Source of the DNA: Liolophura sinensis
Taxonomy: Eukaryota > Mollusca > Polyplacophora > Chitonida > Chitonidae
Reading direction: 5' to 3'
NCBI RefSeq assembly: GCF_032854445.1
Contig: NC_088305.1
Coordinates: 31,771,645 to 31,835,644 of the forward strand
DNA length: 64,000 nucleotides
The notes below the pieces were generated by a model that did not search any database, was not told the DNA's origin, and saw only the letters and a list, made by a program, of their open reading frames with translations. Position 1 is the first letter of the stretch. Every line of letters begins with the position of its first letter. Of this stretch, positions 9,901-45,459 are shown in pieces. A program made the translations under genes and the position numbers.

Positions 9901-12900
9901 CCCTTAGTGGCTGAGTGCTTAACGTCCTCAGTGGCTGAGTGCTTAGCACCCTCAGTGGCTGAGTGCTTAGCGTCCTCAGTGGCTGAGTGCTTATTACCCT
10001 CAGTGGCTGAGTGCTTAACGTCCTCAGTGGCCGAGTGCTTAACACCCTCAGTGGCCGAGTGCTTATTGCCCTCAGTGGCTGAGTGCTAAGCACCCTCAGT
10101 GGCTGAGTGCTTAGTGTCCTCAGTGGCTGAGTGCTTAACGTCCTCAGTGGCTGAGTGCTTAGCACCCTCAGTGGCTGAGTGCTTAGGCACCCTCAGTGGC
10201 TGAGTGCGTAGCATCCTCAGTGGCTGAGTACTTATTGCCCCTCAGTGGCTGAGTGATTAACGTCCTCAGTGGCTGAGTGCTTAGTGTCCTCAGTGGCTGA
10301 GTGCTTAGTGTCCTCAGTGGCTAAGTGCTTAGCATCCTCAGTGGCTAAGTGCTTAGCATTCTAGTGTAGAGTAGTAACTTGAGAGGCACTCTCATCGGTT
10401 CATGCGATAATGAAAGTTACCTGTAAAGCATTAATTCTATTTCCTGACTTACATCGGATCTCCTTCAGAGTAAATATTTCAGGAAATAAAGTTGATGGGT
10501 CATGAATAATACTTGATATTGTGTATAAGCTGCCCATGTTAAAATGCTCTGATTTTCTGCACCATGTCTGACACTGCAAACATTACAGCCCAAAATGGCC
10601 TTACCACAATTTTGTAACATCTCAGCTTGTATTTAAGTGTCTCATTTCAATGTATAGTTCATCCAGCTAGTGCCAGCCGTTTGCCAGTTTGCAGATAGTT
10701 TCAGTGGTGTATGTGTGCTCATTTCAGGGTCATGTGTCAGAAAACAGCCAGTGTGGCGTACCCGCGGAAATCTGGCTAAACCTCGGGGAGCAGAGGCGAT
10801 ACCTGGAGCTCTACACTCGCTACCACAATTGTCCTCCGCTCCATCCCACGGAGGAGAAAGGATAGAGATGAACATCCTCAAGGTAGATTTATGTCCCCTG
10901 TTCCTCACAAACTGTCCCTTGCTCAATCCCTCAGAGGAGGAGAGGATAGAGATGAACATGGTCAGGGTAGATCATCACAACTGTCCTCCCGCTCCATCCC
11001 ATGGAGGAGGATTGGGTGGTGTGGGCAGGGTTATGTCCCTTGATATCCATAGAGCCATGCAACATACAACCTTCGATTTGAAATGCTTTTGGTTAACAAT
11101 TGTGAAATGAATTTCAATGAAATGCAATGTGATTTGAGAAATTGAAGTGAAGTATGGTGCTGCTTTCAAGTGAAGAATGACACATAACATGAAACTTCTG
11201 TTTATGTTCTTGGTGTTACTGTAGTTAGTTGAAGAAGAAACAAGGCCTGGTTTACCAGTTTTCAGTAGACATTGGGATGTGAATTCTGGCCAGTATGACC
11301 AGCTTCATTTAGTCAACAATTCAGAGCCAGCACAATAATGCTGGCTGCCTTTGTATAAGATAAATATTTTTGACCATGGCACAAAACTCAAGTATATAAA
11401 TAAATATATAAGTACAGTGTCTGGTATTGTCGTGGCATAAAAGTAAAAATGAATTTCCCAAAATCACTGGCCAATAGGTCCTGTGTGTTTTTGAGAAATG
11501 CTAATACTCCTCGAATGTTAGCTAGTCCTTCCATCAATTAAAGAAAAACAAATGTATAACATCTGTAATAGAGGCCATGGTTGTTTTTTACAGACATGAT
11601 AGGACAAGTTTTTCAGCATTTATCAGGAATGCATTGGAGAATGTTTTCTAAAGTAGGCGTATAATTTTGTCATACCTGGATTTTTAGCATTTCTTCTCTT
11701 TCATCTATGGTTATCATGAATATCTCTGATTGGTCAACATAGGAGCTACATACAACGGTGAGCTGTGAACAAGAGGAGTTCCAAAATTATCTGCGACACC
11801 TGGCTGAGTGCAATGTATCCAGTTATAACTTTTTACAGCCAGCAGCCAAGACGTACATCCAGGTGAGTGCAATGTTTGGAGTTATAACATCTTACAGCCA
11901 ACAGCCAAGACGTACATCCAGGTGAGTGCAGTGTATCAGGTTATAACATCTTACAGCCAGCAGCCAAGACTTACATCCAGGTGAGTGCAATGTTTGGAGT
12001 TATAACATCTTACAGCCAGCAGCCAAGACTTACATCCAGGTGAGTGCAATGTTTGGAGTTATAACATCTTACAGCCAGCAGCCAAGACTTACATCCAGGT
12101 GAGTGCAATGTTTGGAGTTATAACATCTTACAGCCAGCAGCCAAGAGGTACATCCAGGTGAGTGCAATGTTTGGAGTTATAACATCTTACAGCCAGCAGC
12201 CAAGACGTACATCCAGGTGAGTGCAATGTTTGGAGTTATAACATCTTACAGCCAGCAGCCAAGACGTACATCCAGGTGAGTGCAATGTTTGGAGTTATAA
12301 CATCTTACAGCCAGCAGCCAAGACGTACATCCAGGTGAGTGCAATGTTTGGAGTTATAACATCTTACAGCCAGCAGCCCAGACTTACATCCAGGTGAGTG
12401 CAATGTTTGGAGTTATAACATCTTACAGCCAGCAGCCAAGACTTACATCCAGGTGAGTGCAATGTTTGGAGTTATAACATCTTACAGCCAGCAGCCAAGA
12501 CTTACATCCAGGTGAGTGCAATGTTTGGAGTTATAACATCTTACAGCCAGCAGCCAAGACTTACATCCAGGTGAGTGCAATGTTTGGAGTTATAACATCT
12601 TACAGCCAGCAACCAAGACTTACATCCAGGTGGGTGTAATCTGCATGGTTAGAATCTTCATTTTTCGTCCAAAGATTAGTTTGTTTAAAATCTCTACCAT
12701 TTCTTCATTAAGCAACACAATTGTCCTGATTTTCTAGGCTTTCCGGTCATGCCAATATATCGTCAATGTGAAAAATTACCTGGTCCATATTTTTCAGAAA
12801 CTAAATGATTATTAATTTTTTTATACCATCCTCCAACATTTATGCTGCCCGTAAAAGCACCAGTTTAAGTTGGTGTAGCCTGTAATAACCAAAATTCCCC

Positions 12901-21900: not shown

Positions 21901-24900
21901 GTGGGCAGTGAGCTAGTGGTCAACACATGGTACACGAGTGGTGAGCTGGTGGTGAGCTAATGGTCAACATGTGGTACACTAGTGGTGAGCTGGCAGTGAA
22001 CTAATGGTCAACATGTGGTACACTATTGGTGTGCGGGCAGTGAGCCAGTGGTCAACACGTGGTACACAAGTGGTGAGCTGGCAGTGAACTAGTGGTCAAC
22101 ATGTGGTACACTAGTGGTGAGCTGGCAGTGAGCTAGTGGTACACAAGTGGTGAGCTGGCAGTGAACTAGTGGTCAACACGTGGTACACTAGTGGTGTGCT
22201 GGCAGTGAGCTAGTGGTCAACATGTGGTACACGAGTGCTGAGCTGGATGTGAGTTAGTGGTCAACACGTGGTACACCAGTGGTGAGCTGGCAGTGAGCTA
22301 GTGGTCAACACGTGGTACACTAGTGGTTAACACATGGTACACGAGTGGTGAGCTGGCTGTGAACTAATGGTCAACACGTGGTACACTAATGGTGTGCCTC
22401 TAACAACCCTCAAGCGACAGAAACATACAGGGTTTAATACTAACTGAAAATATAGTACCTGTAGCCTTTAGTATGTCATATTTAAAGCCGTGTGGAAATA
22501 AGACTTTAGACTAAGGAATTCGAAATATTTCAAGATGATGTACAATGCAATGAATGATCTCTTTTGCTTCTCTGATGTAATTGTGGACTTTTAATTTCCT
22601 TATTTCCTTATTTCCTTATGCTACATTTGTTATTGAAAGCATCAAGGTTGAACCCAGTGATCAGGAAACTCAGAAGGAGACCAATAGCAGACAAACACTG
22701 AAGCGACAGAAAGATGACAGCGCCAAAGCTACCTCCCATGAAACAGAGAGACATGATTTAGAAATGGACAACCGGAATGATGTTGCTGCTGATGTAGAGA
22801 GTAAAGTGGACCCAGGTGTAATCACAGACGTAGCCTTGGCTACAGGTGGTCCAGGAAACATCGACAATTCTCTGTCACCAGAGAAGATCGAGAGACATTT
22901 GTCAGAGATTGAGGAAATTCAAGAGCCGAGTGACATGAGTGAGGCAGACGCTGACAGCTTTCATCCTCTCATCATACCACTGAGCCCCGTGTACACCAGC
23001 AATGTTACCATGGCGATGACGGATATATCCATGCAGCCAGCTCAGCCAGAGCTAGGTCAGTTATAATCCTGTTTTTGATACATGTACCCCTGCTGTTAAG
23101 GTGTATGTATGTGTGCCCGTCTGTCTGTTTGTACTTTCTGTCTGTGAGCAACTTCATGGAAGAAGTTTTGTGGGAATTTAGGTGAAATATTATGCACTGG
23201 TGAACTTGGAATATATAAGGACCATTTTGTTACATTTTGGTGGTGATCCATACCATCCTGGGATTTTTGAAGTGATTCTGTGCGAAGATAGGACAGAAAT
23301 ACAAAGTGTTGTCCTTTTGTTTGCAGTCTGAATTTGTACATGGTATCTATGGCAGACGTTTTTGCTGTGTGAGTGTCTTCTAGTTTATGATAGTGGTCAG
23401 GTTGTTTCCGTCTGAAATGATGGTGAAGTGCTACAAAGTGAGCTTGAAACTTAATGTTATCTGAGATTTTGCACACTGAAACATATCTGAGATCTTTCTG
23501 TCTCCAGGCATCCAACAGAAACATGGCGTGAATGATGATACAGGCTCAGGATTCACAAGTCCTAAGGCAAGAGTGCGAAGGTCAAGCTCCAGGAAGACCC
23601 TTGACCCACTGAATACCATCCTGAGCCTCCAAGACAAGATGTTACACTCCACACCTGTCCACAACTTCTCTTCTTCTGCCTCTCCCAGTCACCCTACAGG
23701 CCCGTCTTGTCTTGCCCAGTCAGCACCTCACCTTTCAAACCAATCCAGATTTCCTCCCCACCAATCCCAAGCTCCGCCTCATAACTCCCAAGCTCATCCC
23801 CAATTCTCTCAAGCTCCAGCCCACCAGTTCCAAGCTCCACCCCAAGCTCCGGCCCACCAGTTCCAAGCTCCACCCCAAGCTCCAGCCCATCAGTTCCAAG
23901 CTCCACCCCAAGCTCCGGCCCAAGCTCCAGCCCACCAGTTCCAAGCTCCGGCCCACCAGTTCCAAGCTCCACCCCAGCAGCCCCAAGCCCCTGCTGTGAA
24001 GGAAAACCCTTCAGACTATCAACAACCCCAGGATCCTCTGAACGTCACGTATCACCTCTGGTCGTTTGGTGGTAGAATGGTCCTTATACGCTGCAGTTGT
24101 CATGGTTATCGCAGGGATGGTAACCAGAGGGTGAGTCAGAAATATGATTGGTCATGGTCATATTTCTGCTGGATGGAATGAGAATTTACTGTGTTTATTT
24201 GTCAGATACAATCAGGTGCTAGGCGTTCTGCATTAAGGGATAGTGGTTGACTGGTATCAGTATAATGACTCAGTATAATGGGGCGGTTTGCTTGCCTTTG
24301 GTAAGTCATCTCTGTGAAGCATCACTAGATAAAAGAGCCGTGGAAATCCGTCCTGCAACAATGAGGCATATTACATGCCATCTAAGGACTTTTTCTTCAT
24401 CATTTGATTGAAAAATTGTTAGGTACGACATTAAACCCAAGCATTCACTCACTCTAAATTGTTCATGCTGCAGAAAATAAGCCCCTGATGAATGGGGTCA
24501 CAGAATTCCAGCCCTTGCTTTCAGCATGTTCATTTGCTGGAACATGCGTGGGTTCAAACTCAGCCTTTGACAGGAAGTTTATGGATTGCTAAACTCTTTC
24601 TACATTTTCTTGTGGAGTCCTGGATGGAATCGGTGGTAGACTATCATCATTTAACCACTCTCAAACACTCATTGGAGTTTAGCCTTTTCCAAGTAGACAT
24701 CATTATGACATAAATGAAAGAGTGTTGAAAGCAATCAGTGGAATATAGAAATAAAAAATGGTATTGTTAATATGTCAGTTCTGTATTCATTTCATGTTCC
24801 CTTAGATGTCCTTCCTGACAATAGCCACAAAGTTGGAATATCAGACAAACTACGGAATGGAGCAGATGACCAGTGGCGAGCTGGTCAGGATTGGATTAGC

Positions 24901-27900
24901 TGTTACATCCGGCAGAACTGTCCATTGATTAGAGGTAAGTGTTCCTTCTGTCACCTTCTGATTGTCAGGCATACTACATGTATTTCCGGGATTGTATTAG
25001 CTGTTACATCCGGCAGAACTGTCCATTGATTAGAGGTAAGTGTTCCTTCTGTAACCTGCTGATTGTCAGACAAACTATGTCAGGGATTGGATTAGCTGGT
25101 ACATCCGGCAGAACTATCCATGGATTAGAGGTAAGTGTTTCTTCTGTCACCTTCTTATTGTCAGGCATACTATGTCCAGGATTGTATTAGCTGTTACATC
25201 CGGCAATACTGTCCATTGATTAGAGGTAAGTGTTCCTTCTGTAACCTGCTGATTGTCAGACAAACTATGTCAGCGATTGGATTAGCTGTTACATCCGGCA
25301 GAACTATCCATTGATTAGAGGTAAGTGTTTCTTCTGTCACCTTCTTATTGTCAGGCATACTACATGTATGTCCGGGATTGTATTAGCTGTTACATCTGGC
25401 AGAACTGTCCATTGATTAGAGATAATCGTTCCTTTTGTCACCTCATTGTCAGACAAACTGTTTCAGGGATTGGATTAGCTATTACATCTGGCAGAACTGT
25501 CCATTGATTAGAGGTAATTGTTCCTTCTGTCACCTTTTGATTGTCAGACAAACTATGTCAGGGATTGAATTAGCTGGTACATCTGGCAGAACTGTCCATT
25601 GATTAGAGGTAATTGTTCCTTCTGTCACCTTTTGATTGTCAGACAAACTATGTCAGGGATTGGATTAGCTGGTACATCTGGCAGAACTGTCCCTTGATTA
25701 GAGGTAAGTGTTCCTTCTGTCACCCGCTGATTGTCAGACAAACTATGTCAGGGACTGGATTACCTGTTACATTTGGCAGAACTGTCCATTGATTAGAGGT
25801 AATTGTTCCTTCTGTCACCCGCTGATTGTCAGACAAACTATGTCAGGGACTGGATTACCTGGTACATCTGGCAGAACTGTCCATTGATTAGAGGTAAGTG
25901 TTCCTTCTGTCACCTTCTCATTGTCAGACAAATTATGTCAGGGACTGGATTAGCTGTTACTTCCTGCAGAACTGTTTGTTGATTAGAGGTAAGTGTTCCT
26001 TCTGTCATCTGCTGATTGTCAGACAAATTATGTCAAGGATTGGATTAGCTTTTACATCTGGGAGATCTGTCCACTGATTAGAGGTAAATGTTCCTTCTGT
26101 CACCTTCTGATTGTCGGACAAACTATGTCAGGGATAAGATTACCTGTTACATCTGGCAGATCTAATTAGAGGTAAATGTTCCTTCTGTCATCTGCTGATT
26201 GTCAGACAAACTATGTCAGGGATTGGATTAGCTGGTACATCCGGCAGAACTGTCCATTGATTAGAGGTAAGTGTTTCTTCTGTAACCTGCTGATTGTCAG
26301 ACAAACTATGTCAAGGATTGGATTAGCTGATACATCCGGCAGAACTGTCCATTGATTAGAGGTAAGTGTTTCTGCTCTCACCTGCTGTTTGGACAGCATA
26401 TCCCTGTCAGACAAACTGTGTCAGGGATTGGATTAGCTGGTACATCTGGCAGAACTGTCCATTGATTAGAGGTAAGTGTTTCTTCTGTCACTTGCTGATT
26501 GTCAGACAAACTATGTCAGGGATTGGATTAGCTGGTACATCCGGCAAAAGTGTCCATTGATTAGAGGTAAGTGTTTCTTCTGTCACCTGCCGATTGTCAG
26601 ACAAACTATGTCAGGGATTGGATTAGCTGATACATCCGGCAGAACTGTCCATTGATTACAGGTAAGTGTTTCTGCTCTCACCTGCTGTTTGGACAGCATA
26701 TCCCTGTCAGCAACAGGCAACAAATTGTGTCAGCTGGTTAGCAAGTTTAATCCTGATCACCAGATTTTTCTTTCATTTTGTTTTTAATGTCATCTCCTTT
26801 TGTTATTTTTCCTGTTCAGTCTGAAGGTGTATCTGTACTCTCTCTGCAGTATGTGTTCTCTCTCTGCAGTATGTGTCCTCTCTCTGCAGTATCTGTACTC
26901 CCTCTGCAGTATCTGTACTCTGTCTGCAGTATCTGTACTGTCTCTGCAGTATGTGTACTCTCTCTGCAGTATCTGCACTCTCTCTGCAGTATCTGTACTC
27001 TCTCTGCAGTATGTGTACTCTCTCTGCAGTATCTGTACTCTCTTCTGCAGTATCTGTACTCTCTCTGCAGTATGTGTACTCTCTCTGCAGTATCTGTACT
27101 CTCTTCTGCAGTATCTGTACTCTCTCTGCAGTGTGTGTACTCTCTCTGCAGTATCTGTACTGTCTCTGCAGTATGTGTACTCTCTCTGCAGTATCTGCAC
27201 TCTCTCTGCAGTATCTGTACTCTCTCTGCAGTGTGTGTACTCTCTCTACTCCCTCTGCAGTATCTGTACTCTCTCTGCAGTATGTGTACTCTCTCTGCAT
27301 TATCTGTACTCTCTCTGCAGTATCTGTACTCCCTCTGCAGTATCTGTACTCTCTCTGCAGTATCTGTACTCCCTCTGCAGTATCTGTTCTCTCTCTGCAG
27401 TATCTGTACTCCCTCTGCAGTATCTGTACTCTCTGCAGTATCTGTACTCCCTCTGCAGTATCTGTACTCTCTCTGCAGTATCTGTACTCCCTCTGCAGTA
27501 TCTGTACTCCCTCTGCAGTATCTGTACTCTCTCTGCAGTATCTGTACTCCCTCTGCAGTATCTGTACTCTCTCTGCAGTATCTGTACTCCCTCTGCAGTA
27601 TGTGTACTCTCTCTGCAGTATCTGTACTCTCTCTGCAGTATCCGTACTCTCTCTGCAGTATTTGTACTCTCTGCAGTATCCATACTCTCTCTGCAGTATG
27701 TGTACCCTCTCTGCAGTATGTGTACTCCTTCTGCAGTATCTGTACTCTCTCTGCAGTATCTGTACTCTCTCTGCAGTATCTGTACTCTCTCTGCAGTATC
27801 TGCACTCCCTCTGCAGTATGTGTACTCTCTCTGCAGTATCTGCACTCTCTCTGCAGTATGTGTACTCTCTCTGCAGTATGTGTACTCCCTCTGCAGTATC

Positions 27901-30900
27901 TGTACTCTCTCTGCAGTATCTGTACTCCCTCTGCAGTATCTGTACTCTCTCTGCAGTATCTGTACTCTCTCTGCAGTATCTGTACTCCCTCTGCAGTATC
28001 TGTACTCTCTCTGCAGTATCTGTACTCTCTTCTGCAGTATCTGTACTCTCTCTGCAGTATCTGTACTCTCTCTGCAGTATCTGTACTCCCTCTGCAGTAT
28101 CTGTACTCTCTCTGCAGTATCTGTACTCTCTTCTGTAGTATCTGTACTCCCTCTGCAGTATGTGTACTCTCTCTGCAGTATCTGTACTCTCTTCTGCAGT
28201 GTCTGTACTTCCTCTGCAGTATCTGTACTCTCTCTGCAGTATCTGTACTCTCTCTGCAGATGAAATCAGTCCATTCTTCTTAATTTGATACATTGTTTGT
28301 GATGTGATGGACAAGTTATTGCAATGGCAATATCCAGAATCCAGAATTTAAAGCTAGGATCATGAAAATAAGTGTAAAATCACTTCTGATTCAGTAGTTA
28401 TACAGAGTTTTACTGAAGGTTTGCAAAGGTAGTGTCATTTTTAAAAAAGTTGCATGCTTGTATAGGATACAATTGTTGTAATTGTTCCACTCCAGTGCAG
28501 ACAGATGTAGAGACAAATTTTCAGCTGTTTTTCACCACCAGCAGTATTTGAGACCCATTCCACTCCAGTGCAGACAGATGTAGAGACAAATTTTCAGCTG
28601 TTTTTCACCACCAGCAGGATTAGAGACCCATTCCACTCCAGTGCAGACAGATGTAGAGACAAATTTTCAGCTGTTTTTCACCACCAGCAGTATTAGAGAC
28701 CCATTCCACTCCAGTGCAGACAGATGTAGAGACAAATTTTCAGCTGTTTTTCACCACCAGCAGGATTAGAGACCCATTCCACTCCAGTGCAGACAGATGT
28801 AGAGACAAATTTTTAGCTGTTTTTCACCACCAGCAGTATTAGAGACCCATTCCACTCCAGTGCAGACAGATGTAGAGACAAATTTTCAGCTGTTTTTCAC
28901 CACCAGTAGGATTAGAGATCCCAATGTGAACATCTCCGCTATTTATATTAGGAAGTAACCGAACTTTTAGTGAGGTCCTGTCGTGAGCCAGGAACATACA
29001 AATGAAATCCAGTTACACCAACTGAACCCTCCTACGCTTAATCTTCAGCCAGAGTTGAGCTGGTTACTGTAAGGAGTGGATATCAGCTAGACTTACATTG
29101 TACATGAGCCTCTTGATTTGTTTTCAGCCAGAGTTAATGCGTTGACATCAGAGCTGGTCATGTTGGAAGAAGTGTATGCCAGCAAGACTTACATTGTACA
29201 TGAACCTCTTGTTTTGTTTTCAGCCAGAGTTAATGCGTTGACATCAGAGCTGGTCATGTTGGAAGAAGTGGATGCCAGCAAGACTTACATTGTACATGAA
29301 CCTCTTGTTTTGTTTTCAGCCAGAGTTAATGCGTTGACATCAGAGCTGGTCATGTTGGAAGAAGTGGATGCCAGCAAGACTAACATTGTACATGAACCTC
29401 TTGATTTGTTTTCAGCCAGAGTTAATGCGTTGACATCAGAGCTGGTCATGTTGGAAGAAGTGTATGCCAGCAAGACTTACATTGTACATGAACCTCTTGT
29501 TTTGTTTTCAGCCAGAGTTAATGGGTTGACATCAGAGCTGGTCATGTTGGAAGAAGTGGATGCCAGCAAGACTTACATTGTACATGAACCTCTTGTTTTG
29601 TTTTCAGCCAGAGTTAATGGGTTGACATCAGAGCTGGTCATGTTGGAAGAAGTGGATGTGAGCAAGACTTACATTGTACATGAACCTCTTGTTTTGTTTT
29701 CAGCCAGAGTTAATGGGTTGACAGAGCTGGTCATGTTGGAAGAAGTGGATGCCAGCAAGACTTACATTGTACATGAACCTCTTGTTTTGTTTTCAGCCAG
29801 AGTTAATGCGTTGACATCAGAGCTGGTCATGTTGGAAGAAGTGGATGCCATGAGGATTATACCACAATGTCAAAGTCATTTGTAAGCTATTACATCAGAT
29901 AGGTTTAATCGTGCAATCTATTCCTTAAAGGCAAATAAAACACTAAAAGGAAGGGTATGAATATATTATAAGAAGAGAGACGATTGAACACTGGTCACGA
30001 AAATAGTTTGATTTTTAATTTCCATTGTGGGTATATAGGGTTCTGTGGTGGTATGTTGAGACCCAGAGGGTATCAGTGACATCCCGGCCCTGTGTGGTGG
30101 TCTACTGAGACCCAGAGGGTATCAGTGACGTTCTGATCCGCTGTGGTGGTCTGTTGAGACCCAGAGGGTATCAGTGACGTCCTGGCCCTCTGTGGTGGTC
30201 TATTGAGACCCAGAGGGTATCTGGGTCTCAGCTGGGGATATCGGGGACCTCCCGGCCCTCTGTGGTGGCCTGCTGAGACCCAGGGGGTATCGGGCATGTC
30301 CCGGCCCTCTCTGGTGGTTTGTTGAGACCCAGAGGGTATCAGGGACGTCCCGGCCCTATGTTTGGCTTCAAGGTCCATGTCATGAGTTCATTGTTCTAAA
30401 TGTAGATGTATTTTGCATGATGAAATCTGGCAGTCTGTGTGTCTCCAGTGGTAAAAACCTTATGTGACATCACTGCTCCCAATATGGTCAGAAAAGGCCA
30501 CCGCAGAATTCAATGTTCCAAATGATTTTTTCTAAAGTCAAAAAGAATTCTAAAAAAAACAAATAAATTAAACTGTTTTCCTAGACAGTATTTAATGATC
30601 TTTTATCTGACATATAATTCATGCTGGTGTTTTATTTGCCTTTAAAATGTTCAGGTGACAGTTATTCTCCAAACTCCACACACCACATGAGTTGTTTCAA
30701 TTAGTGAGTCATGCAGGTAGTAAATCAAATCAAGTTTAAGTGAGAAGTTATTTTATTTTTGTTTATGGTGTGAACTTAACAGGAAGGACATCAAAACTAA
30801 CGTTGTGGTATTGTGGTTTTAATTATCTAGTGTGTCTAGTAGTTAAAGGTGATTGCCTTTCAATCGCTAGGACACAGGAGTTTAGGGTTCAGACCCAACC

Positions 30901-33900
30901 TTGGACAGGGAATTTGTAGATTTACCTGCTCTCACTGCTTGTGGGGTCATGGTGACAATAACAGTGCTGGTTGTGGCCATTTGCGCATTGTTACAACGTG
31001 CAAAGAGCACCTGTTTTTCACCAATATGATGAGCAGGTCTGTGCATCACAAGTGGGAATGTTTGTCAGTAACTTGTCTAATGTCAAATGTTTCCTCTGTG
31101 CTTTCCCCACTGTCAAAAATGACATAGAAGTGAAAAATTCTTAAATATCATGTTACGAATCAGTTAAATAAATTATACAGTAGTACATTTTAATTATAAA
31201 TAAAATGTATTTGATACCTATATGTCAAAATCTATGTAATGTCAAACCCTTGCTGCTCTTCTTGCAGACCCCCTCAAGGCCTTCAACGTATGAACAAAGT
31301 GTTGTCAAAGTTAGATACGTAAGTTGACTGTCTTTGGTTCAGTAGACTTTCCTTGGTTCGGTGGACTCTGCCGGTTTGGTGGATTTCCCTGGATTGGTGG
31401 ATTTCCTTGGTTGGTTGGAATTCAAATTGGGTTAGTGGACTTTAAAGGTTTGGTGGATTTCCTGGGTTCTCTGGATTTCCTTGCTTTGGTGGACTTTCCT
31501 TGCTTTGGTGGACTTTCCTTGCTTTGGTGGACTTTCCTTGGTTCAGTGGACTTTTCTTGGTTCAGTGGACTTTTCTTGGTTCAGTGGACTTTCCTTGGTT
31601 CAGTGGATTTTCCTTGGTTCAGTGAACTTTCCTTGGTTCAGTGGACTTTCCTTGGTTCAGTGAACTTTCCTTGGTTCAGTGGATTTTCCTTGGTTCAGTG
31701 GATTTTCCTTGGTTCAGTGGACTTTCCTTGGTTCAGTGGACTTTCCTTGCTTTGGTGGACTTTCCTTGGTTCAGTGGATTTTCCTTGGTTCAGTGGACTT
31801 TCCTTGATCCAGTGGACTTTCCTTGGTTCAATGGACTTTCCTTGCTTTGGTGGACTTTCCTTGGTTCAGTGGACTGTCCTTGATTCAGTGGACTTTCCTT
31901 GGTTCAGTGGACTTTCCTTGGTTCAGTGGACTTTCCTTGGTTCAGTGGACTTTTTCCTTGGTTCAGTGGACTTTCCTTGATTCAGTGGACTTTCCTTGGT
32001 TCAGTGGACTTTCCTTGGTTCAGTGGACTTTCCTTGGTTCCTGGACACAGTGGATTTCCTGGGCACAGTGGATTTCCTGGGCACAGTGGATTTCCTGGAC
32101 AGTGGATTTCCCAGGCCAGACAGTAGATTTTCCATGTCCAGTGGGTTTCCCAGGACTGGTTCTGTTGTGGACTTCAGAGTTATTAATGAAATGACACATT
32201 GTAGTTCAGTCTACATGTACAGTAAATCTGCCAAGACCAGTCAAATAAATAAATAAGTAAATACATAAATACATATACTAAAAAGTTTAAACCGTGTAAC
32301 TGTATATTTGCTCATGGCATAAATAGTAAATACCTTGTTTTCATAAAGATTTACCCAGCAGTTTCATCCAGTGTTAAATATCATCTTACAAATATAATGT
32401 CAATTTACCTGTAATGAGGTGTTTAAACATTTTAGGTTAGAAGTGGGCAGTTACTTATTGAGTCATTCACCTGGCGACAGCCACTGTAAGCTAAGGAAGG
32501 CTGTGGAAGGTAACAAAAGGTGAGCCTAAAAACACATCTCTGCTTCACCTCTGACCTTGATGTACTGGTACCTTGTTTTTCCTAGTGTCTGGTGTAAGTG
32601 AAACTGGCCAGGAAACTGGACAGTACACCAATCTGACTGCTGTGAGTTCAAGTCCAGCTCATGCTGGCTTCCTCGCCGGCCGTTTGAAGGTCTGCCAGCA
32701 AACTGCAGATGGTCATGGGTTTCCCCTGGGCTCTGCAGAGTTTCCTCCAACCATAATGCTAATGACCATATTTAGGTGCTCTGAGTTACTCCAGGTGCCT
32801 AGATTTACTCCAGGCGCTCAGATTTACTCCAGGCACTCAGATTTACTCCAGGCGCTCAGATTTACCCCAGGCACTCTGGTTTACTCCAGGCACTCTAGCT
32901 TACTGCAGACACTCTTGTTTACTCCAGATGCTCAGAATTACTCCAGGCACTCTGTTTTACTCCAGGTGTTCTGGTTTACTCCAGGTCCTCTGGTGTACTC
33001 CAGGCACTCTGGTTTACTCCAGGTGCTGTGGTTTACTCCAGGCACTCTGGTGTACTCCAGGCACTTTGGTTTACTCCAGGCACTCTGGTTTACTCCAGGT
33101 CTTCTGGTGTACTGCAAGCACTCTGATTTACTCTGGTGCTCTGATTTACTCCAGGCACTCTGGTTTACTCCTGACACTCTGGTTTACTCGGGGTCCTCTG
33201 TTGTACTCCAAGCGCTCTGGTTTACTCCAGGTGCTCTGGTTTACTTCAGGTGCTCTGGTTTACTTCAGGTGCTCTGGTGTACTCCAGGCGCTCTGGTGTA
33301 CTCCAGGCACTCTGGTTTACTCCATGTCCTCTGGTGTACTGCAAGCACTCTTTACTCCAGGCACTCTGGTTTACTCCAGACACTCTGGTTTACTTCCTGC
33401 ACTCTGCTTTACTTTACACATAAAAATGTTTGGTACTGTATGTAAGTGAAATATTCTTGAGCAAGGTGTAAAGGACCGTCAATGTAAAGAGTGGCACATT
33501 TCATAATGTTAATTAGCTGATCTGAAACCGTTGGGCTTAAAACATGATATAGATTTGTGAAAAAATTTGCCTTCATTTGTCTTATTATAAAATAATGTAA
33601 AATTTGTTATTAATTGTTGTAATGCAAGAAAAGGATAAGTAAGGTTTATTGCTGTGTTGTTGTTAAGCTACCATTGTGTACTCCTCAGTAGAATGAGTAT
33701 GCATTGTACCACTGATTCCGCTATGCTAAAATCTGTATTTTGACATTCGTACCCCCATACTGCATCAACTAAATACAGCCTTTTCTCATGACCAACGCAG
33801 GCCTGGGATCAAACCCGCGTCGGGTCATACCAAGACTTTTAAAAATGGTGTACGCTTTTGCCTTGCTTCGTGCTCAGCTGAGAGGCTTGAGCAAGGAAAC

Positions 33901-35646
33901 AGGACTCGTTGGCCTGATGCCAGTGTAATGTGACTGGGTGGGGTATCATGTCTGCTGGCGGCAGCACTTTGGCGGCAGGACTTTGCGGCAAGACACAGTA
34001 TATGTACACACACCTATATGATTCTTCATTGACATATGACTGAAAAATTGTTAAGTATGACCTTGAACCCCAAGCATACATACATACATTACAAGGTTTG
34101 GGACAGGCAATGTACTTGCAGTGGGGGTTTTTTCTGAAGTTTTGTTGGCGACAGTGACCTCGACCAGACATTTAAAAAAAAAAAAAAGAACCAAAAAGCG
34201 GTTTGTTTCCAATAAGAGGGAGGAATTTTTACAAATTTTACCCAGAAAATACAGTGTAATTGTTTCTGGAGAAATACAGTGAGGGAAGCATGTTAGACTT
34301 TACAGACTTCTTATGTGACTTTATCAAAGTCATATTCAATTTCTAAAAACTGGATTAAAATGCCATCTTATGTCAACAGAGGTGCATATGACCTTCATTT
34401 CACCTACACCGGGTTCACGTGTACCGACTCCGACCTCCCCGCAGTGCCGCCTTGGATTCCTATAGACCCTGCCATCATTTTGCCCTCCCACTGGAAAAAG
34501 AGTCGCATACCTGCTACATTTGATCCTCCGGGTGAGTTTACAGTTCTTGTTTATCCTGCATTTCCAGAAAGTTGCAAACATACACTGAACAGATCTATGT
34601 ATTTGAATGATGTTTGACGCCATACTCAAGGATATTTCACTTACTCCAAGGCGGTCAGGTTGTTTAGAACAGATTAGGAAGGAGTCTTCAAACGGGGTTT
34701 GGAGGCAATATATTCCTTGGTGGTTATGTTAAATTGGTCATTGGAATGTCCATTATGGGCGATGGCTAGGAAAGTGATGTCTGTGTAACGCGTAGATTTT
34801 ATATTGCGTTAAAAATTAAAATTATCATGAGTTATAAGATTGATTGATAAGAATGATGTCCAGAAAGGAGAGATAAAGAGGGTTGAAGATCAATATCTTC
34901 TTGTCTTATCTTTGTCGATGGAACTTCCCAGAACAGTAGTTAAAAAGTCTGTTAATAGTTATTAAAACAGGATTTAAATCTTTTAATAAGTCATCAGCTT
35001 TGTACAGTTTTCTGCAGTGTTGTGCTGTGGATAAATTTGGATTAAGGAACTAAACAGTTCATGAAAATAACTTGTTGCTTTCGATCTACGATGTTTTGTT
35101 ACTCTTTTTTGGAAAAAAAACGTAGCAATGTATATATTTCAATATTGCTGAAGGACACTAGAGATCTTTAGTTAGTAATTACAAATTCAACTTGTAACTT
35201 CTGACTTCCATTCAGAATAAATAACCTTTTTCTGGCTTGAAATTACAAGTTCGTACTTGCAACTTGTAACTGATGATCTCTAGTAACTGTCTTACTCGTT
35301 GAAGGACTCGTGGAAGTACAGATGTATATCACGAATAACACGTTACGAAGATTACACAGTTTCAACCTGACTGTTTCAGCAGATAAGATTCCCAACAGCA
35401 TCACTATCGTGTATTCAGGTTGATCAGCATGTTTCCTTAAGAGAATTATTTCCGAAGAAGCTTTATGGCGGTATAATGCTGGCTTGTAAACTAAACTCTT
35501 ACCTCTTGTTTCTAACACCAGATTTCACAGCAGGTCCCAATGTGGGTCAGAAGAGACGGCACTTCCAGGCGTGTCATCACCAAGGCCATCACAACACTGG
35601 CAAGGCCAAGAAGAACAAGGGCAAGAAGAAACAGTTCAAGAAGTGA
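6896..35646 (+). CDS. ICE2: ICE2 (NARG2) subunit of the little elongation complex, 16 exons
   Basis: Nuclear factor that in animals joins ELL and ICE1 in the little elongation complex, supporting Pol II transcription of snRNA genes. Sixteen exons with GT-AG borders join to about 1,547 codons, longer than the roughly 980 residues of the human protein. Recognisable parts, in order: an N-terminal NGTSVFF..E block; EQRRYLELYTRY; the Cys/Tyr-rich QEKISHACKRVRQYPRFYE block; SSGGLKCLLDN plus VVYIDKPLVNQKMTVREKN; a long low-complexity middle with an AT-hook-like RRRRGRPRKAP; LDPLNTILSLQDKML; and the NARG2 C-terminal domain from about residue 1310 (VLIRCS, TKLEYQTNYGME, GSYLLSHSPGD, PWIPIDP). The extra length is in the repeat-rich middle. 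Exons 3 and 11 each seem to lack one base. Identity is secure; some borders are tentative. Confidence 0.9.
6961..9166 (+). other. ICE2 intron 1
   Basis: AT-rich. Holds a short (GA)n run at about 7,317-7,332 and the SINE fragment at 8,862-8,965. No minisatellite and no other exon that I can support. Confidence 0.65.
8862..8965 (-). mobile_element. SINE 3' fragment, ICE2 intron 1
   Basis: TTATTTGATTTGTGTTTTAC, GTCGTACTGAAGAATATTGC, ACTTATACGACAGCAGCCAG, CATTATGGTGGGAGGAGACC. This is the reverse complement of the common SINE tail and body end. Confidence 0.8.
9167..9438 (+). CDS. ICE2: ICE2 exon 2
   Basis: Acceptor TTTTTCCAAATTTAG. Encodes NVPPINGTSVFFTPESFERF, an acidic DDDSDFEAFLRRKNEEL segment and a polar tail. 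The 3' border is uncertain: CAG|GTGTGT at 9438 gives phase 1, which fits the acceptor at 10,740; a second donor at 9454 (GTAGGT) gives phase 2, which fits no visible acceptor. Confidence 0.7.
9645..10362. repeat. 24-bp minisatellite in ICE2 intron 2
   Basis: About 30 copies of CTCAGTGGCTGAGTGCTTAGTGTC-type units with point variants. The unit is a multiple of three, so both strands stay open for long stretches. The array sits entirely inside intron 2. Confidence 0.95.
10741..10882 (+). CDS. ICE2: ICE2 exon 3 (one-base frame break)
   Basis: Encodes ENSQCGVPAEIWLNLGEQRR and YLELYTRYHNCPPLHPTEE, matching the EQR.Y.DL block of ICE2 proteins. Then the frame breaks at GAGGAGAAAGGATAG (about 10,850-10,864), which reads into TAG. 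One added base restores EERIEMNILK and the phase-0 join to exon 4. A tandem copy at 10,907-10,962 keeps the open version (PSEEERIEMNMVR). This could be an assembly error or a true lesion. An upstream acceptor at 10,727 is also possible. Confidence 0.65.
10834..11015 (+). repeat. Three tandem copies of the ICE2 exon 3 end
   Basis: The final 50 or so bases of exon 3 and its donor recur at about 10,907-10,962 (donor changed to GGTAGAT) and, truncated, at about 10,977-11,015. Shared core: CAACTGTCC..GCTC.ATCCC then GGAGGA and, in the first two copies, GGATAGAGATGAACAT. Confidence 0.85.
11743..11862 (+). CDS. ICE2: ICE2 exon 4
   Basis: 120 nt = 40 codons, phase 0 on both sides, acceptor TTGGTCAACATAG, donor CAG|GTGAGTGC. 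Encodes ELHTTVSCEQEEFQNYLRHL then AECNVSSYNFLQPAAKTYIQ, matching the EF..FL..A....Y region of animal ICE2. Its last 40 bases and donor seed the following 59-bp array. Confidence 0.9.
11823..12633 (+). repeat. 59-bp array of exon 4 end plus splice donor, 14 copies
   Basis: Exon 4's last about 40 bases plus the first intron bases are repeated 14 times with very few changes. Every copy but the last keeps CATCCAG|GTGAGT; the last has GTGGGT. In the downstream copies an acceptor-like ATCTTACAG precedes a 24-nt segment reading PAAKTYIQ in the ICE2 frame. Most substitutions in that segment are silent (ACG/ACT); a few are not (AGG, CCC). Confidence 0.95.
12634..13268 (+). other. Rest of ICE2 intron 4
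   Basis: AT-rich unique sequence between the 59-bp array and exon 5, ending in a plain acceptor (TTTATGATTCCAG). No gene seen. Confidence 0.7.
13269..13406 (+). CDS. ICE2: ICE2 exon 5
   Basis: 138 nt, phase 0 to 0, donor GTGAGCAC. Encodes EKISHACKRVRQYPRFYETI then DAVSLTVPVEQKEFPPLVYV, corresponding to the conserved I..A...V..YP.FY....V stretch of ICE2. Confidence 0.93.
14156..14470 (+). repeat. 55-bp minisatellite inside a SINE-like element, ICE2 intron 5
   Basis: Five or six units of the type CTTGCCAAAGGTCAGTGG, TTTACCATGGGCACTCCGG, TTTGCCCCACCCATAAAA. The flanks match the body and the ATTCTTGAGTATGG..AATAAATAAAT tail of the SINE family, so the array arose by duplication within the SINE (about 14,080-14,582). 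Confidence 0.88.
14614..14751 (+). CDS. ICE2: ICE2 exon 6
   Basis: 138 nt, phase 0 to 0, acceptor TGTTGACAG, donor GTAACAGT. Encodes GQVPKVILPNMSCGAKPVLP followed by TDHDKVSEHCPPAGRKTTAS. It aligns with the LG.V..V..P.MP segment of the human protein. Confidence 0.9.
14843..16203. repeat. 57-bp minisatellite, about 24 copies, ICE2 intron 6
   Basis: Near-identical units (TTAATGTGGTGTACTSTGTA, TGATCACTCCTTGGCCTC, then TAGGTTGATGGTTGTAATA). The main variation is CTCTG/CTGTG/CCCTG and TAGG/TGGG. 57 is a multiple of three, so frames stay open across the array, but this is not coding. Confidence 0.96.
16204..17096. mobile_element. SINE 3' ends and remaining ICE2 intron 6
   Basis: A plus-strand SINE tail (about 16,250-16,445, ending GGCGTAAAACACCAATCAAA and TGAATGAATG) lies back to back with a minus-strand tail (about 16,446-16,560, starting TTGACTGATGTTTTATGC). 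The remainder up to exon 7 is unique AT-rich sequence. Confidence 0.75.
17097..17256 (+). CDS. ICE2: ICE2 exon 7
   Basis: 160 nt, phase 0 in, 1 out, acceptor CACTTTTTGCAG, donor GTCAGTTG. Encodes ACSQDWNAEVLAQKYGCQIV then LSSGGLKCLLDNQSPGYQRD and WQLPVIVKEYPVV. This matches the A..L...Y...IALTS..L..LL.N.GP.Y...W.IPV block of ICE2. Confidence 0.95.
17257..18474 (+). other. ICE2 intron 7 with SINE remnants
   Basis: Contains a minus-strand SINE tail at about 17,325-17,405 (TTTATTTGGTTGGTGTTTAATGC) and degraded SINE-like sequence at about 17,615-18,070 ending near ATTAATAAATGAAG. No tandem array here. Confidence 0.65.
18475..20416 (+). CDS. ICE2: ICE2 exon 8 (large central exon)
   Basis: 1,942 nt, phase 1 in, 2 out, donor CAG|GTGAGT. 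Starts with the conserved DNGKTFLHKVVYIDKPLVNQ and KMTVREKNSKFH. The middle is polar, Ser/Lys/Glu-rich and contains a degenerate repeat of ATDNMATGKVTTDN-type units (18,949-19,215). An acidic DDEFEEE patch precedes an AT-hook-like RRRRGRPRKAP (about 19,635-19,667), which suggests a DNA-minor-groove contact. Three Ser/Arg basic clusters follow (RRSPRVLQRK, TRRRSLRI, RRRSGRLAAK). The repeat and AT-hook are not part of the human ICE2 as I know it. Confidence 0.92.
20800..22395. repeat. 43-bp minisatellite rich in CACGTG, ICE2 intron 8
   Basis: About 37 degenerate units of the form GGCAGTGAGCTAGTGGTCAA, CACGTGGTACACTAGTGGT. Most units contain the palindrome CACGTG (canonical E-box); others have CATGTG or CACATG. 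The array fills most of the intron between exons 8 and 9. Confidence 0.95.
22640..23055 (+). CDS. ICE2: ICE2 exon 9
   Basis: 416 nt, phase 2 in, 1 out, acceptor TTGTTATTGAAAG, donor GTCAGTTA. Encodes SIKVEPSDQETQKETNSRQT, then polar sequence and a short acidic stretch LSEIEEIQEPSDMSEADADS. IKVEPSDQE resembles a sumoylation consensus (psi-K-x-E with downstream SD). No known domain. Confidence 0.85.
23508..24130 (+). CDS. ICE2: ICE2 exon 10 (Pro/Gln repeats and start of NARG2 C domain)
   Basis: 623 nt, phase 1 in, 0 out, acceptor TTCTGTCTCCAG, donor GTGAGTCA. Begins GIQQKHGVNDDTGSGFTS, then the conserved motif LDPLNTILSLQDKML. Next is a Pro/Gln/His region with imperfect QAPAHQFQAPP units (23,754-23,996), then NVTYHLWSFGGRMVLIRCSC, the start of the conserved C-terminal domain. 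Confidence 0.92.
24225..24460 (+). mobile_element. SINE-like element, second family
   Basis: Shares GGAAATCCGTCCTGCAACAA, ACATTACATGC-type body and the tail TGAAAAATTGTTAGGTACGA followed by AAACCCAAGCATTCACTCAC with copies at 54,555-54,775 and, in part, 33,780-34,100. Confidence 0.7.
24806..24934 (+). CDS. ICE2: ICE2 exon 11 (one-base frame break)
   Basis: Acceptor TTCATGTTCCCTTAG, donor AGAG|GTAAGTG. Reads MSFLTIATKLEYQTNYGMEQ and MTSGELVR in phase from exon 10, homologous to the P.VEYQ..YG.E....SELCRLW part of the domain. Then the frame needs one more base at GTCAGGATTGG (about 24,885-24,895). In the shifted frame it continues DWISCYIRQNCPLIRG and leaves in phase 1, as exon 12 requires. 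Most of the downstream tandem copies carry GTCAGGGA with the extra base. Confidence 0.75.
24886..26695 (+). repeat. 95-bp array of exon 11 end plus donor, about 19 copies
   Basis: Unit: TGTCAGGGATTGGATTAGC, TGTTACATCCGGCAGAACTG, TCCATTGATTAGAGGTAAGT, then TTCCTTCTGTCACCTGCTGA, TTGTCAGACAAACTA. The unit is exon 11 with about 30 bases deleted inside (exon text CAGACAAACTAC is fused near GTCAGG). Most copies keep AGAG|GTAAGTG, and each has a pyrimidine-rich acceptor-like TTCTGTCACCTGCTGATTGTCAG. Confidence 0.93.
26826..28262. repeat. 20-bp (TCTGCAGTATCTGTACTCTC)n array, about 72 copies, ICE2 intron 11
   Basis: Highly regular with small length changes (18, 20, 21) and CCCTC/CTCTC, ATC/ATG variants. 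Each unit holds CTCTCTCTGCAG, a good splice-acceptor look-alike and a PstI palindrome. It produces artificial open frames of up to about 500 codons on both strands. Confidence 0.97.
28486..28918. repeat. 72-bp minisatellite, 6 copies, ICE2 intron 11
   Basis: Near-identical units of CCACTCCAGTGCAGACAGA, TGTAGAGACAAATTTTCAGC, TGTTTTTCACCACCAGCAG, GATTAGAGACCCATT. Almost no divergence, so expansion is recent or homogenised. Confidence 0.95.
29100..29850 (+). repeat. 96-bp array of exon 12 start plus acceptor, 8 copies
   Basis: Each unit has TTGTTTTCAG|CCAGAGTTAA, TGCGTTGACATCAGAGCTGG, TCATGTTGGAAGAAGTGGAT, then GCCAGCAAGACTTACATTG and TACATGAACCTC. Unit length 96 (one copy 93), all multiples of three, so the ICE2 frame stays open through all copies. 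The last copy is the canonical exon 12. Confidence 0.95.
29797..29881 (+). CDS. ICE2: ICE2 exon 12
   Basis: 85 nt, phase 1 in, 2 out, donor GTAAGCTA. Encodes ARVNALTSELVMLEEVDAMR and IIPQCQSH, matching the IDAFTSKLFLLEEI part of the human domain. Seven upstream acceptors from 29,128 onwards would extend the exon in frame (open from 29,118 to 29,885). Confidence 0.9.
30047..30358. repeat. About 49-bp minisatellite, ICE2 intron 12
   Basis: Six to seven imperfect copies of TGTGGTGGTCTGTTGAGACC, CAGAGGGTATCAGTGACGTC, CCGGCCCTC. Confidence 0.92.
30820..31175 (+). mobile_element. Diverged full-length SINE, ICE2 intron 12
   Basis: tRNA-like head with box-B-like GGTTCAGACCCAACC near 30,887-30,901, a body similar to the 14.1-kb element (CACCAATATGATGAGCAG, AACTTGTCTAATGTC), and a tail resembling AAGTGAAATATTCTTGAG then AATCAGTTAAATAAAT. 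Confidence 0.6.
31268..31318 (+). CDS. ICE2: ICE2 exon 13
   Basis: 51 nt, phase 2 both sides, acceptor CTGCTCTTCTTGCAG, donor GTAAGTTG. Encodes PPQGLQRMNKVLSKLDT, corresponding to the helix before the GSYLLSH motif (L..IL..L in the human protein). Confidence 0.9.
31331..32150. repeat. 19-bp minisatellite (GGTTCAGTGGACTTTCCTT)n, ICE2 intron 13
   Basis: About 42 copies with variants (GCTTTGGTGGAC, TTTTCTTGG, and CACAGTGGATTTCCTGGG at the 3' end). It starts only about 12 bases after the exon 13 donor. Confidence 0.95.
32436..32519 (+). CDS. ICE2: ICE2 exon 14
   Basis: 84 nt, phase 2 both sides, acceptor CATTTTAG, donor AAAAG|GTGAGC. Encodes LEVGSYLLSHSPGDSHCKLR and KAVEGNK. GSYLLSH is the hallmark of the NARG2 C-terminal domain. 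Confidence 0.94.
32570..33480 (+). mobile_element. SINE with internal 19-bp array, ICE2 intron 14
   Basis: tRNA-like head (AACTGGCCAGG..CAGTACACC, then GTGAGTTCAAGTCCAGC) and the usual body (TGCTGGCTTCCTCGCCGGCC, GGTTTCCCCTGGGCTCTGC, TTTCCTCCAACCATAATGCT). The tail GTAAGTGAAATATTCTTGAG is split from the body by the array at 32,776-33,412. Confidence 0.8.
32776..33412. repeat. 19-bp (TTTACTCCAGGCACTCTGG)n array inside a SINE
   Basis: About 33 copies with variants (TGTACTCCAG, AGGTGCT). The array interrupts a SINE between body and tail. Each unit holds an acceptor-like TTTACTCCAG. Confidence 0.94.
33780..34100 (+). mobile_element. SINE-like element, second family, partial
   Basis: Head region includes GGGATCAAACCCGCGTCGGG. 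The 3' end CATATGACTGAAAAATTGTTAAGTATGA, interrupted here for length, then CCCCAAGCATACATACATAC, matches the second SINE family at 24.2 and 54.6 kb. Confidence 0.55.
34380..34531 (+). CDS. ICE2: ICE2 exon 15
   Basis: 152 nt, phase 2 in, 1 out, acceptor CTTATGTCAACAG, donor GTGAGTTT. Encodes GAYDLHFTYTGFTCTDSDLP then AVPPWIPIDPAIILPSHWKK and SRIPATFDPP. PW.P.DP...LP.H...GRIP.TF is the C-terminal signature of ICE2. Confidence 0.95.
34532..35521 (+). other. ICE2 intron 15
   Basis: AT-rich. A minus-strand SINE tail remnant near 34,595-34,680 (GATGTTTGACGCCATACTCAAGG). A short inverted similarity near 35,160-35,285 (AATTACAAATTCAACTTG with AATTACAAGTTCGTACTTGC). No array. Confidence 0.6.
35522..35646 (+). 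CDS. ICE2: ICE2 exon 16 (stop codon)
   Basis: 125 nt from the acceptor TCTAACACCAG, phase 1 in. Encodes DFTAGPNVGQKRRHFQACHH then QGHHNTGKAKKNKGKKKQFK and ends KK-TGA. The basic Lys tail resembles a nuclear localisation signal. AATAAA follows 38 bases after the stop. Confidence 0.88.
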
Positions 35647-42464: not shown

Positions 42465-43445
42465 TGGCCTCTAACATGACTTGATGCTATCGTGATCAAT
42501 CCAAATATTCAATTATCTTCCGTGCGACGGTGAAGTTGAACAAAGACCAAAGATTTAAACCGTAGTCAGCAGCTACTGATGGAGATGTCCTACATTAGCC
42601 GGAGTATAACCTGTCGGAATTCTTTCCTGGTTGTCGGATGGAAAGGGTAGTGGTGTGCCTGTTTCAGCGTGAGTTCCCATCCTCGAGCACTACTGGGTAA
42701 CTGTGAACAGAAGGATTCAGTCGAAGCTACGACGATAATTAAAAAGTGTTATTTTTAATACAGTGACTAAGAAGACAGCCAACTGCTACATGTGCCACTC
42801 ATGCCAGGTTTAGACTTTTTTCGTTGACATACTGTAGGTTTTAGCAGAAAACATGAAAATATTAGAACTATCCAGGCCTTGGGGATGCTTAGTCCATCAG
42901 AATGGCCCGGGCCTTGTGGATGCTTAGTCCACCAGAATGGCCCAGTTTTTGAGGATGCTCAGTCCACCAGCAGGGTCCAGGCCTTTGGGATTCTTAGTCC
43001 AAAAGCAGAATCCTGGTTTGTGCAGAAACACTGTACTATAAAAGATAGAGGACAGTATAGAGAGTAAATCCAAGTCATATTCACGTCATTTAAAAATGTT
43101 TTCCATGTTTTTTTATGAACTTAGTGGGCGATGATTTGACGGGCTGATTCATTTCATTATTTAATTGATTGGTGTTTTACGCCGTTCTCAAGAATATTTG
43201 ACCTAATCGACGGTCGAAATAATTTGTGATGTGAACAAGAATGACAAACCCCACAGTGAAATGCCAGGAAGGTAAACTCTGACACTTAACAAGGTACACC
43301 AAAAAGGAGAACCTTCAAATATCCGCAGTGCTATTATACTATCGGACAACCCATCGAAGAATTGGCCAGCAAAATCCTGAAATAGAGCACTGGACAATTG
43401 TCAATAGATATTATATATGAGGTGGGCCTGAAGGAGGCCGGAAAT
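42465..43445 (+). repeat. 1.5-kb tandem duplication, first copy (shared about 980 bp)
   Basis: From GGCCTCTAACATGACTTGAT to GGTGGGCCTGAA this stretch is almost identical to 43,973-44,950, offset 1,508 bp. It includes a 36-bp minisatellite (GATGCTTAGTCCACCAGAA, four units at about 42,865-42,995) and a truncated minus-strand SINE tail (43,155-43,215). Confidence 0.92.
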
Positions 43446-43985: not shown

Positions 43986-44950
43986 GACTTGATGCTATCG
44001 TCATCAATCCGAATATTCAATTATCTTCCGTGCGACGGTGAAGTCGAACAAAGACCAAAGATCTAAACCGTAGTCAGCAGCTACTGATGGAGATGTCCTA
44101 CATTAGCCGGAGTATAACCTGTCGGAATTCTTTCCTGGTTGTCGGATGGAAAGGGTAGTGGTGTGCCTGTTTCAGCGTCAGTTCCCATCCTCGAGCACTA
44201 CTGGGTAACTGTGAACAGAAGGATTCAGCCGAAGCTACGACGATAATTAAAAAGTGTTATTTTTAATACAGTGACTAAGAAGACAGCCAACTGCTACATG
44301 TGCCACTCATGCCAGGTTTAGACTTTTTTCGTTGACATACTGTAGGTTTTAGCAGAAAACATGAAAATATTAGAACTATCCAGGCCTTGGGGATGCTTAG
44401 TCCATCAGAATGGCCCGGGCCTTGTGGATGCTTAGTCCACCAGAATGGCCCAGTTTTTGAGGATGCTCAGTCCACCAGCAGGGTCCAGGCCTTTGGGATT
44501 CTTAGTCCAAAAGCAGAATCCTGGTTTGTGCAGAAACACTGTACTATAAAAGATAGAGGACAGTATAGAGAGTAAATCCAAGTCATATTCACGTCATTTA
44601 AAAATGTTTTCCATGTTTTTTTATGAACTTAGTGGGCGATGATTTGACGGGCTGATTCGTTTAATTATTTATTTGATTGGTGTTTTACGCCGTTCTCAAG
44701 AATATTTGACCTAATCGACGGTCGAAATAATTTGTGATGTGAACAAGAATGACAAACCCCACAGTGAAATGCCAGGAAGGTAAACTCTGACACTTAACAA
44801 GGTACACCAAAAAGGAGAACCTTCAAATATCCGCAGTGCTATTATACTATCGGACAACCCATCGAAGAATTGGCCAGCAAAATCCTGAAATAGAGCACCG
44901 GACAATTGTCAATAGATAATATAAATGAGGTGGGCCTGAAGCAGAGCTGA
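43973..44950 (+). repeat. 1.5-kb tandem duplication, second copy
   Basis: Near-perfect copy of 42,465-43,445 including the 36-bp units (44,375-44,505) and the SINE tail (44,660-44,720). Further partial copies follow at about 45,005-45,460 (six 36-bp units) and 46,795-47,060. Confidence 0.92.
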
Positions 44951-45459
44951 AATTACAACTCAAGCTGTAACGTGGGCAGAAGACGTCAACTGGACGTCAG
45001 ACAATTCCTTACTCATGCCAGGTTTAGACTTTTTTCGCTGACATACTGTAGGTTTTAGCATGAAACATGAATATATTACAAGGGCCCAGGTCTTGGGGAT
45101 GCTTAGTCCACTAGAAGGGTCCAGGCCTTGAGGATGCTTAGCCTACCAGCAGAACCCAGTCCCTGTAGATGCTTAGTCCACCAGAAGGGCCCAGTCCCTG
45201 TAGATGCTTAGTCCACCAGCAGGGCCCAGGCCTTGGGGATGCTTAGTCCAAAAGCAGAATCATGGATTGTGCAGGAATACTATACTACAAAAGATAGAGT
45301 ACAGCATAGAGAGTAAATCCAAGTCAGACTCATGTCATTTAAATATGTTTTCCATGTTTTTTATGACCTTTGTGGGCGATGATTTGACAGTCTGATTGAT
45401 TTAATTATTTATTTAATTCGTGTTTTACGCCGTTCTCAAGAATATTTAGGTTCATTTTT

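Follow-up and report, generated by a model that had tools for sequence, protein, structure and literature searches.

In this study, we show that a minisatellite spans the boundary between an intron and exon 10 of the ICE2 gene of the chiton Liolophura sinensis, its last copy being the complete exon, and that it is one of a class of arrays seeded at splice junctions, which in a sample comprising ICE2 and myosin genes occur at several exon edges of the chiton. The window (the whole stretch of 64,000 nt analysed here) contains eight tandem acceptors of the form TTGTTTTCAG/CCAGAG (the slash marks the splice junction), with exonic first bases at 29128, 29224, 29320, 29416, 29512, 29608, 29704, and 29797. 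As the initial annotation of this DNA had proposed, they are spaced by 96 bp, with one step, the last, of 93 bp. Of eight arrays at exon edges, this one alone has a unit that is both a multiple of three and open, which is near chance expectation, so the open reading frame looks accidental. The last acceptor is likely to be the one that dominates splicing.

Results

Anatomy of the array at ICE2 exon 10

Tandem Repeats Finder (TRF) reported the array at 29071–29850 with a period of 96, 8.2 copies, and 96% matches, statistics that rule out a chance match. The unit straddles the exon–intron boundary as tandem direct repeats, the splice signal is retained in the units, and the outermost copy is the complete exon, which continues to the donor at 29882; these are anatomical features of a mirage. 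It was correctly recognized at the outset that the 5′ portion of the exon is what is repeated, the extent being about the first 53 nt of 85, and that there are eight good units; to these a decayed ninth, upstream at 29049, must be added, and the frame read from its acceptor runs into a TGA. The exon itself ends at 29881 and not at 29885 as first given (Table 1). One frame is open in all eight units up to the end of the last exon, while the other two are closed, in agreement with the earlier reading. The units differ by substitutions and by one 3-bp deletion, the sole indel among the eight open units, and the differences between units read as the amino-acid changes D/Y, A/G, A/V, Y/N, and V/D. 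A genome search with the array, in which simple repeats were skipped, returned a single place, the window's own locus.

Table 1. Positions of the features discussed, in window coordinates
Feature	Position	Strand	Basis
Seven additional units, each holding the 3′ end of the intron and about 53 nt of the exon start	29128..29796	+	TRF, unit comparison, alignment
Ninth unit, decayed, bordering the array on the intron side; acceptor CTTCAG/CC at 29049	29049..29127	+	Alignment to full unit
Authentic exon 10 (85 nt), donor TTT/GTAAGC at 29882	29797..29881	+	Gene model, profile match
Exon 9, ending ...TTAGAG/GTAAGT, which precedes the array's intron	24806..24934	+	Gene model; its end lies within the NARG2_C match
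Exon 11, PPQGLQRMNKVLSKLD	31268..31318	+	Sequence, gene model, profile match
ICE2 exon with the end of NARG2_C (gene identity)	34380..34531	+	PF10505 match
Donor-side array of 19 units of ~95 bp, built from the 3′ end of exon 9 and its 5′ splice site	24884..26691	+	TRF, donor check
Donor-side array: final 59 bp of the exon at 11743-11862, 14 times with CAG/GTGAGTG (last copy GTGGGTG)	11805..12640	+	TRF
20-bp intronic array, 72 copies, unit with acceptor-like CTCTCTGCAG	26829..28259	+	TRF, motif scoring
73-bp intronic array, 6 copies, unit with acceptor-like TTTTCAG	28485..28923	+	TRF, motif scoring
19/18-bp array from base +4 of the intron after exon 11; touches the junction, holds no exon sequence	31322..32111	+	TRF

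The ICE2 model built from the sequence has 13 exons, of which 12 are 51–623 nt in length, and exons 5′ of 9167 may be missing from it. In this model the array exon is exon 10, rather than 12 as originally numbered. The gene was identified as ICE2/NARG2 by the NARG2_C domain (PF10505), which scored 35.2 bits for the open frame of a single exon and 53.5 bits for the joined model against a cut-off of 30.8; that exon (34380–34531) is the sole NARG2_C match at E 0.001, with five candidates scored in the genome. When exons 9–11 are joined at the last acceptor, they match profile positions 71–134 of 211 as one stretch of 25.1 bits, which alone is below the 30.8 cut-off. It follows that the insert site lies inside the NARG2 C-terminal domain, as had been suggested, and that the profile fits the insert-free join. 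The totals for the forms with no, one, and two inserts (53.5, 46.4, and 52.2 bits) do not rank the forms, because the two-insert form picks up a third matched stretch. Profile positions between 134 and 163 are uncovered. The model may therefore lack an exon between 31318 and 34380, but none is needed there to make the phases fit. When translated, the array also matched Orbi_VP7 in Pfam (E 4.5e-8), a hit that was rejected as a repeat artefact, as no single stretch passes. Tandem repeats of about 30 and 33 bp, both multiples of three, are present within ICE2 coding exons at 18951–19213 and 23810–23988.

Splice sites and reading frame

From −46 to +53, two upstream acceptors are identical to the last one (99/99 bases) and three more share 96–98 bases with it, while 29128 shares 93/99 and the decayed 29049 only 36/99; the low ungapped match of 29704 (75/99) is due to its 3-bp deletion. 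This comparison supports the view that the acceptors would not be distinguishable by local sequence. In generic matrices, made from animal splice-site frequencies and not trained on the chiton genome, 29128 was weaker, with 8.6 bits against 10.4 bits. Tandem exon duplication, a class in which every copy is flanked by an acceptor and a donor of its own, was rejected, given that a donor-like site above 3 bits is present in only one of the seven extra units, unit 6 (GAT/GTGAGC at 29658). The claim that one extra copy alone holds an incidental donor is thus borne out, but this site scores above the authentic donor (6.7 versus 4.3 bits, generic matrix).

The phases agree across the intron: exon 9 ends AGA G/ and exon 10 starts /CC AGA, and each extra unit likewise has a G before CC. 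The frame is therefore retained with any of the eight acceptors, as originally claimed. Of the 144 donor–acceptor pairs that the array's intron offers, only eight are open to exon 11, and all eight use the first donor. If ICE2 is made, the exon-proximal donor must accordingly be chosen frequently, and exon-proximal choice is probably the rule, which on the acceptor side means 29797.

Other junction arrays in ICE2

Of the 4,862 bp of the intron upstream of exon 10, 4,378 bp lie in four tandem arrays; the intron starts with a donor array and ends with the acceptor array. In the donor array of exon 9, the GT is kept in 18 of the 19 units and lost in one, the donors read GTAAGT, GTAATT, or GTAAAT, and a stop is met from every donor past the first. 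Across both ICE2 donor arrays, the downstream donors lead to stops in all three frames; the exception is copy two of the 59-bp array, from which reading stays open, though in a frame displaced by 59. Most units of the 59-bp array also hold an acceptor-like TCTTACAG, and hence a possible 24-nt exon.

Junction arrays in myosin genes

The myosin sample consists of nine stretches chosen by exon density before the arrays in them were looked at, from a listing that also displayed open-frame lengths; 39 of the 81 listed myosin matches fall inside these stretches. Exon edges were taken as HMM match ends, which are uncertain by a few bases. Tandem arrays lie on a junction in 4 of the 39 HMM-defined exons. 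Three of them comprise the exon end and donor (31 bp with 6 donors, 31 bp with 18 donors, and 66 bp with 8 donors), and the fourth comprises the acceptor and exon start (32 bp, 39 copies as counted by pattern). The 66-bp array was considered as a second in-frame case and discarded because it contains an in-frame stop. The ~39 tandem 32-bp acceptors precede their myosin exon at L028:1346-2706; an N gap lies directly ahead, and the unit resumes beyond it (883–1145), so the actual copy number may differ from this count. Between myosin exon matches there are also a 65-bp array of 52 copies (L032:650-4035), in an 8.7-kb stretch that is 62.5% tandem repeat, and an 82-bp array (L034:4191-5234) with a very strong donor motif (12.3 bits) that touches no exon match and is possibly an older junction array or the mark of a missed exon.

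Arrays of the ICE2 and myosin sample are enriched at exon edges

The ICE2 and myosin set comprises 27 intronic arrays, 15 of them in myosin genes, after two in coding exons (window 18995 and 23810) were dropped and four TRF-split arrays (window 14367, 30234, and 32038; L028 883) were merged (unmerged counts 31 and 16). Eight of the 27 reach an exon edge, compared with 2.1 under random placement (5,000 placements, P 0.0014). The excess persists when the studied array is removed (7/26, P 0.0024) and in myosin alone (4/15, null 1.1, P 0.019). Because the window was picked on account of the array finding, the independent evidence comes from the myosin set, which is small.

A strong donor or acceptor motif in the sense orientation was present in 17 of the 27 units, compared with 5.0 in matched non-array intron pieces, a count reached in none of 300 controls; the antisense motif was present in two of 27. 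For myosin alone, the sense motif was found in 7/15 and the antisense motif in none (control 3.2, reached in 7/300). The thresholds (donor 8 and acceptor 7 bits) had been set after the scores were seen, and the test was repeated so as to cover five threshold pairs. At the other four pairs the pooled excess persisted (reached in 0, 0, 0, and 2 of 300), while that of myosin alone was reached in 12, 5, 4, and 189 of 300, weakening or vanishing at the ends; at the strictest threshold there was no myosin excess (1/15 versus 1.0). In dinucleotide shuffles made before merging, none of 300 reached the combined sense counts of either myosin (8/16) or ICE2 without the studied array (9/14); acceptor motif counts alone were not significant against shuffles (reached by 68/300 and 30/300). 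A paired sense/antisense Wilcoxon test on 33 arrays gave P 0.005 for acceptors and P 0.063, not significant, for donors. The splice-motif excess was absent from 39 arrays in 20 random 10-kb stretches (11 versus 9.9).

The open frame is near chance expectation

Unit lengths in the eight edge arrays are 59, 95, 96, 19, 31, 32, 31, and 66 bp; all but the 19-bp array, which merely touches its junction, extend across one. Two of the eight units are multiples of three, and one, the 96-bp unit of ICE2, is also open. For the 43-nt intron tails upstream of 12 ICE2 acceptors, 16 of the 36 frames are open, so that, with one length in three being a multiple of three, an open multiple-of-three unit is expected in about one in seven acceptor arrays. 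The observed one in eight is near chance, and hence the open frame of the ICE2 array looks accidental. The units give no sign of protein constraint, the data being too few to prove neutrality.

Discussion

The anatomy of the array shows that the minisatellite grew out of the 3′ splice junction of the ICE2 exon: the end of the intron and roughly the first 53 nt of the exon were duplicated in tandem, and the copies on the intron side then multiplied and were homogenized, so that the complete exon remained as the last copy. The exon-proximal acceptor 29797 would be mainly used, paired across the 85-nt exon with the donor at 29882, and the upstream copies would usually be removed along with the intron. 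Upstream acceptors may occasionally be used, each unit adding 31–32 residues, an event that would be tolerated because, by accident, the unit is open and its length divisible by three. The extra splice sites are probably harmless to the finished message.

We regard dominance of the last acceptor as likely for three reasons: the exon so defined is 85 nt in length, ICE2 is obtained with no other donor of this intron than the exon-proximal one, and boundaries duplicated in other systems follow the same pattern. In amphioxus arrays made of the intron 3′ end and the exon 5′ part in tandem, RT-PCR suggests regular splicing (PMC3087553), and the accessible text of PMC3902484 gives no aberrant mRNA for the Adh and troponin C mirages. 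Human CBS 844ins68 is a duplicated intron 7/exon 8 junction at which, according to a partial text of PMC2630376, the more distal site is strongly favoured; the wording in that text is ‘donor’, whereas the title cited there refers to a 3′ splice site. Against dominance it can be said that most copies are locally identical or nearly so, that the authentic donor is weak, and that wrong products could be made and then degraded.

It is also conceivable, although unlikely, that several of the acceptors are used, so that the ICE2 proteins form a ladder with anything from no additional unit to seven, perhaps under regulation. All eight acceptors keep the frame, six of the eight are of equal local strength, and the sole indel among the open units is one of 3 bp; moreover, in the portion of PMC2812944 available, human repeats at exon–intron boundaries often have spliced and retained forms both present. 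However, one open multiple-of-three unit among eight edge arrays is about what the expectation of one in seven predicts, the differences between units, though few, are amino-acid changes with no sign of protein constraint, and the inserts would fall inside NARG2_C, whose profile fits an insert-free join across the site. The idea of a special functional system of tandem acceptors, which the initial annotation had described as NAGNAG-like, finds no support: the genome has donor and acceptor arrays at other junctions where a switch of site would shift or stop the frame, and the amphioxus arrays are reported to splice normally. The wider proposal, that a mutational process of the chiton seeds minisatellites at splice junctions, leaving many introns with competing rows of donors or acceptors, and that in ICE2, where the units are in frame, changes in unit number from one individual or cell to another produce a ladder of protein lengths inside NARG2_C, seems to us rather improbable as a whole.

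We consider it very unlikely that 29128, the 5′-most good acceptor and the first to be transcribed, is the site used, in which case most mRNAs would carry a 754-nt exon with all seven inserts. Models in which acceptors are chosen on a first-come basis or by proximity to the intron would favour this site, and the frame remains open from it. But it is the weaker site by the scores above, and with an intron of 4.9 kb and 12 of 13 exons at 51–623 nt, the shorter exon of 85 nt should have the advantage in pairing across the exon; the amphioxus and CBS precedents also point the opposite way. Multiplication of one unit during assembly is less probable still. Tandem arrays are error-prone and a single assembly was used, but HiFi reads averaging 8.3 kb at 14X, as stated in the accessible text of PMC11068029, can span 0.8 kb, the units differ by substitutions and a deletion, and similar arrays occur at unrelated loci. 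Predominant use of the exon-proximal acceptor, with the upstream copies spliced out as part of the intron, is the reading that we prefer.

The anatomy of the array is already known from the mirages of amphioxus (Adh3, troponin C, globin BflGb6/BflGb9, and PGBD5), which likewise have tandem boundary copies with splice signals in many units, an intact exon at the outer end, and edge units that escape homogenization. Among these, BflGb6, with 6 and 3 units of 150–160 bp in two haplotypes, is of the same acceptor-side type. The ICE2 array differs from the amphioxus mirages in being from a mollusc, in having more copies, in arrays at both ends of one intron, and in its fully open frame. CBS 844ins68 is alike in its duplicated junction with two competing sites for one exon, and unlike in having one extra copy, of 68 bp, and in that its splicing has been measured. 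Internal tandem repeats at human exon–intron boundaries similarly show, in the part of PMC2812944 at hand, that minisatellite variation can change exon structure, but they belong to recent paralogs in segmental duplications, and that part makes no claim of a preferential origin at junctions.

NAGNAG sites are neighbouring acceptors, three bases apart, that keep the reading frame. The ICE2 array had been likened to them and also keeps the frame, but no two AGs three bases apart were found: the acceptors are 96 or 93 bases apart, inside a unit the following AG lies 4 nt further along, and the origin is different.

In the literature found, in which few subscription papers were covered, the recurring class of junction arrays is known from cephalochordates, with boundary repeats also present in recent human paralogs according to partial texts. 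Within that literature, the phylum, the occurrence at several exons of unrelated genes, the arrays at both ends of an intron, and the fully open frame are new. The available portions of the chiton genome paper (PMC11068029) and of the comparative chiton genome paper (PMC12005716) contained no mention of tandem repeats and introns and of tandem repeats and minisatellites, respectively, and we found no literature on CBS 844ins68 splicing together with hnRNP. The presence of arrays at several exons of unrelated mollusc genes suggests a convergent or general process linking the birth of tandem repeats to splice junctions, and such a process would bear on how introns grow and are gained. These arrays are natural competition experiments, each lining up between 6 and about 40 near-identical splice sites. 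Because the sites differ mainly in position, RNA reads alone would show how position decides the choice of splice site.

Outside ICE2, one 35-bp unit occurs in three arrays of the window (42872–43001, 44380–44509, and 45080–45250), two of which have identical statistics, which suggests a larger duplication. Genome searches for GFP (PF01353) and bindin (PF02084) returned no match, but these misses carry little weight, as control genomes lacked matches to both families too. Comparison of the haemocyanin found in the genome with solved structures left its class as broad as before. Eight haemocyanin domain matches in a row at C8:37880506-37891931 mark a complete-looking mollusc haemocyanin gene.
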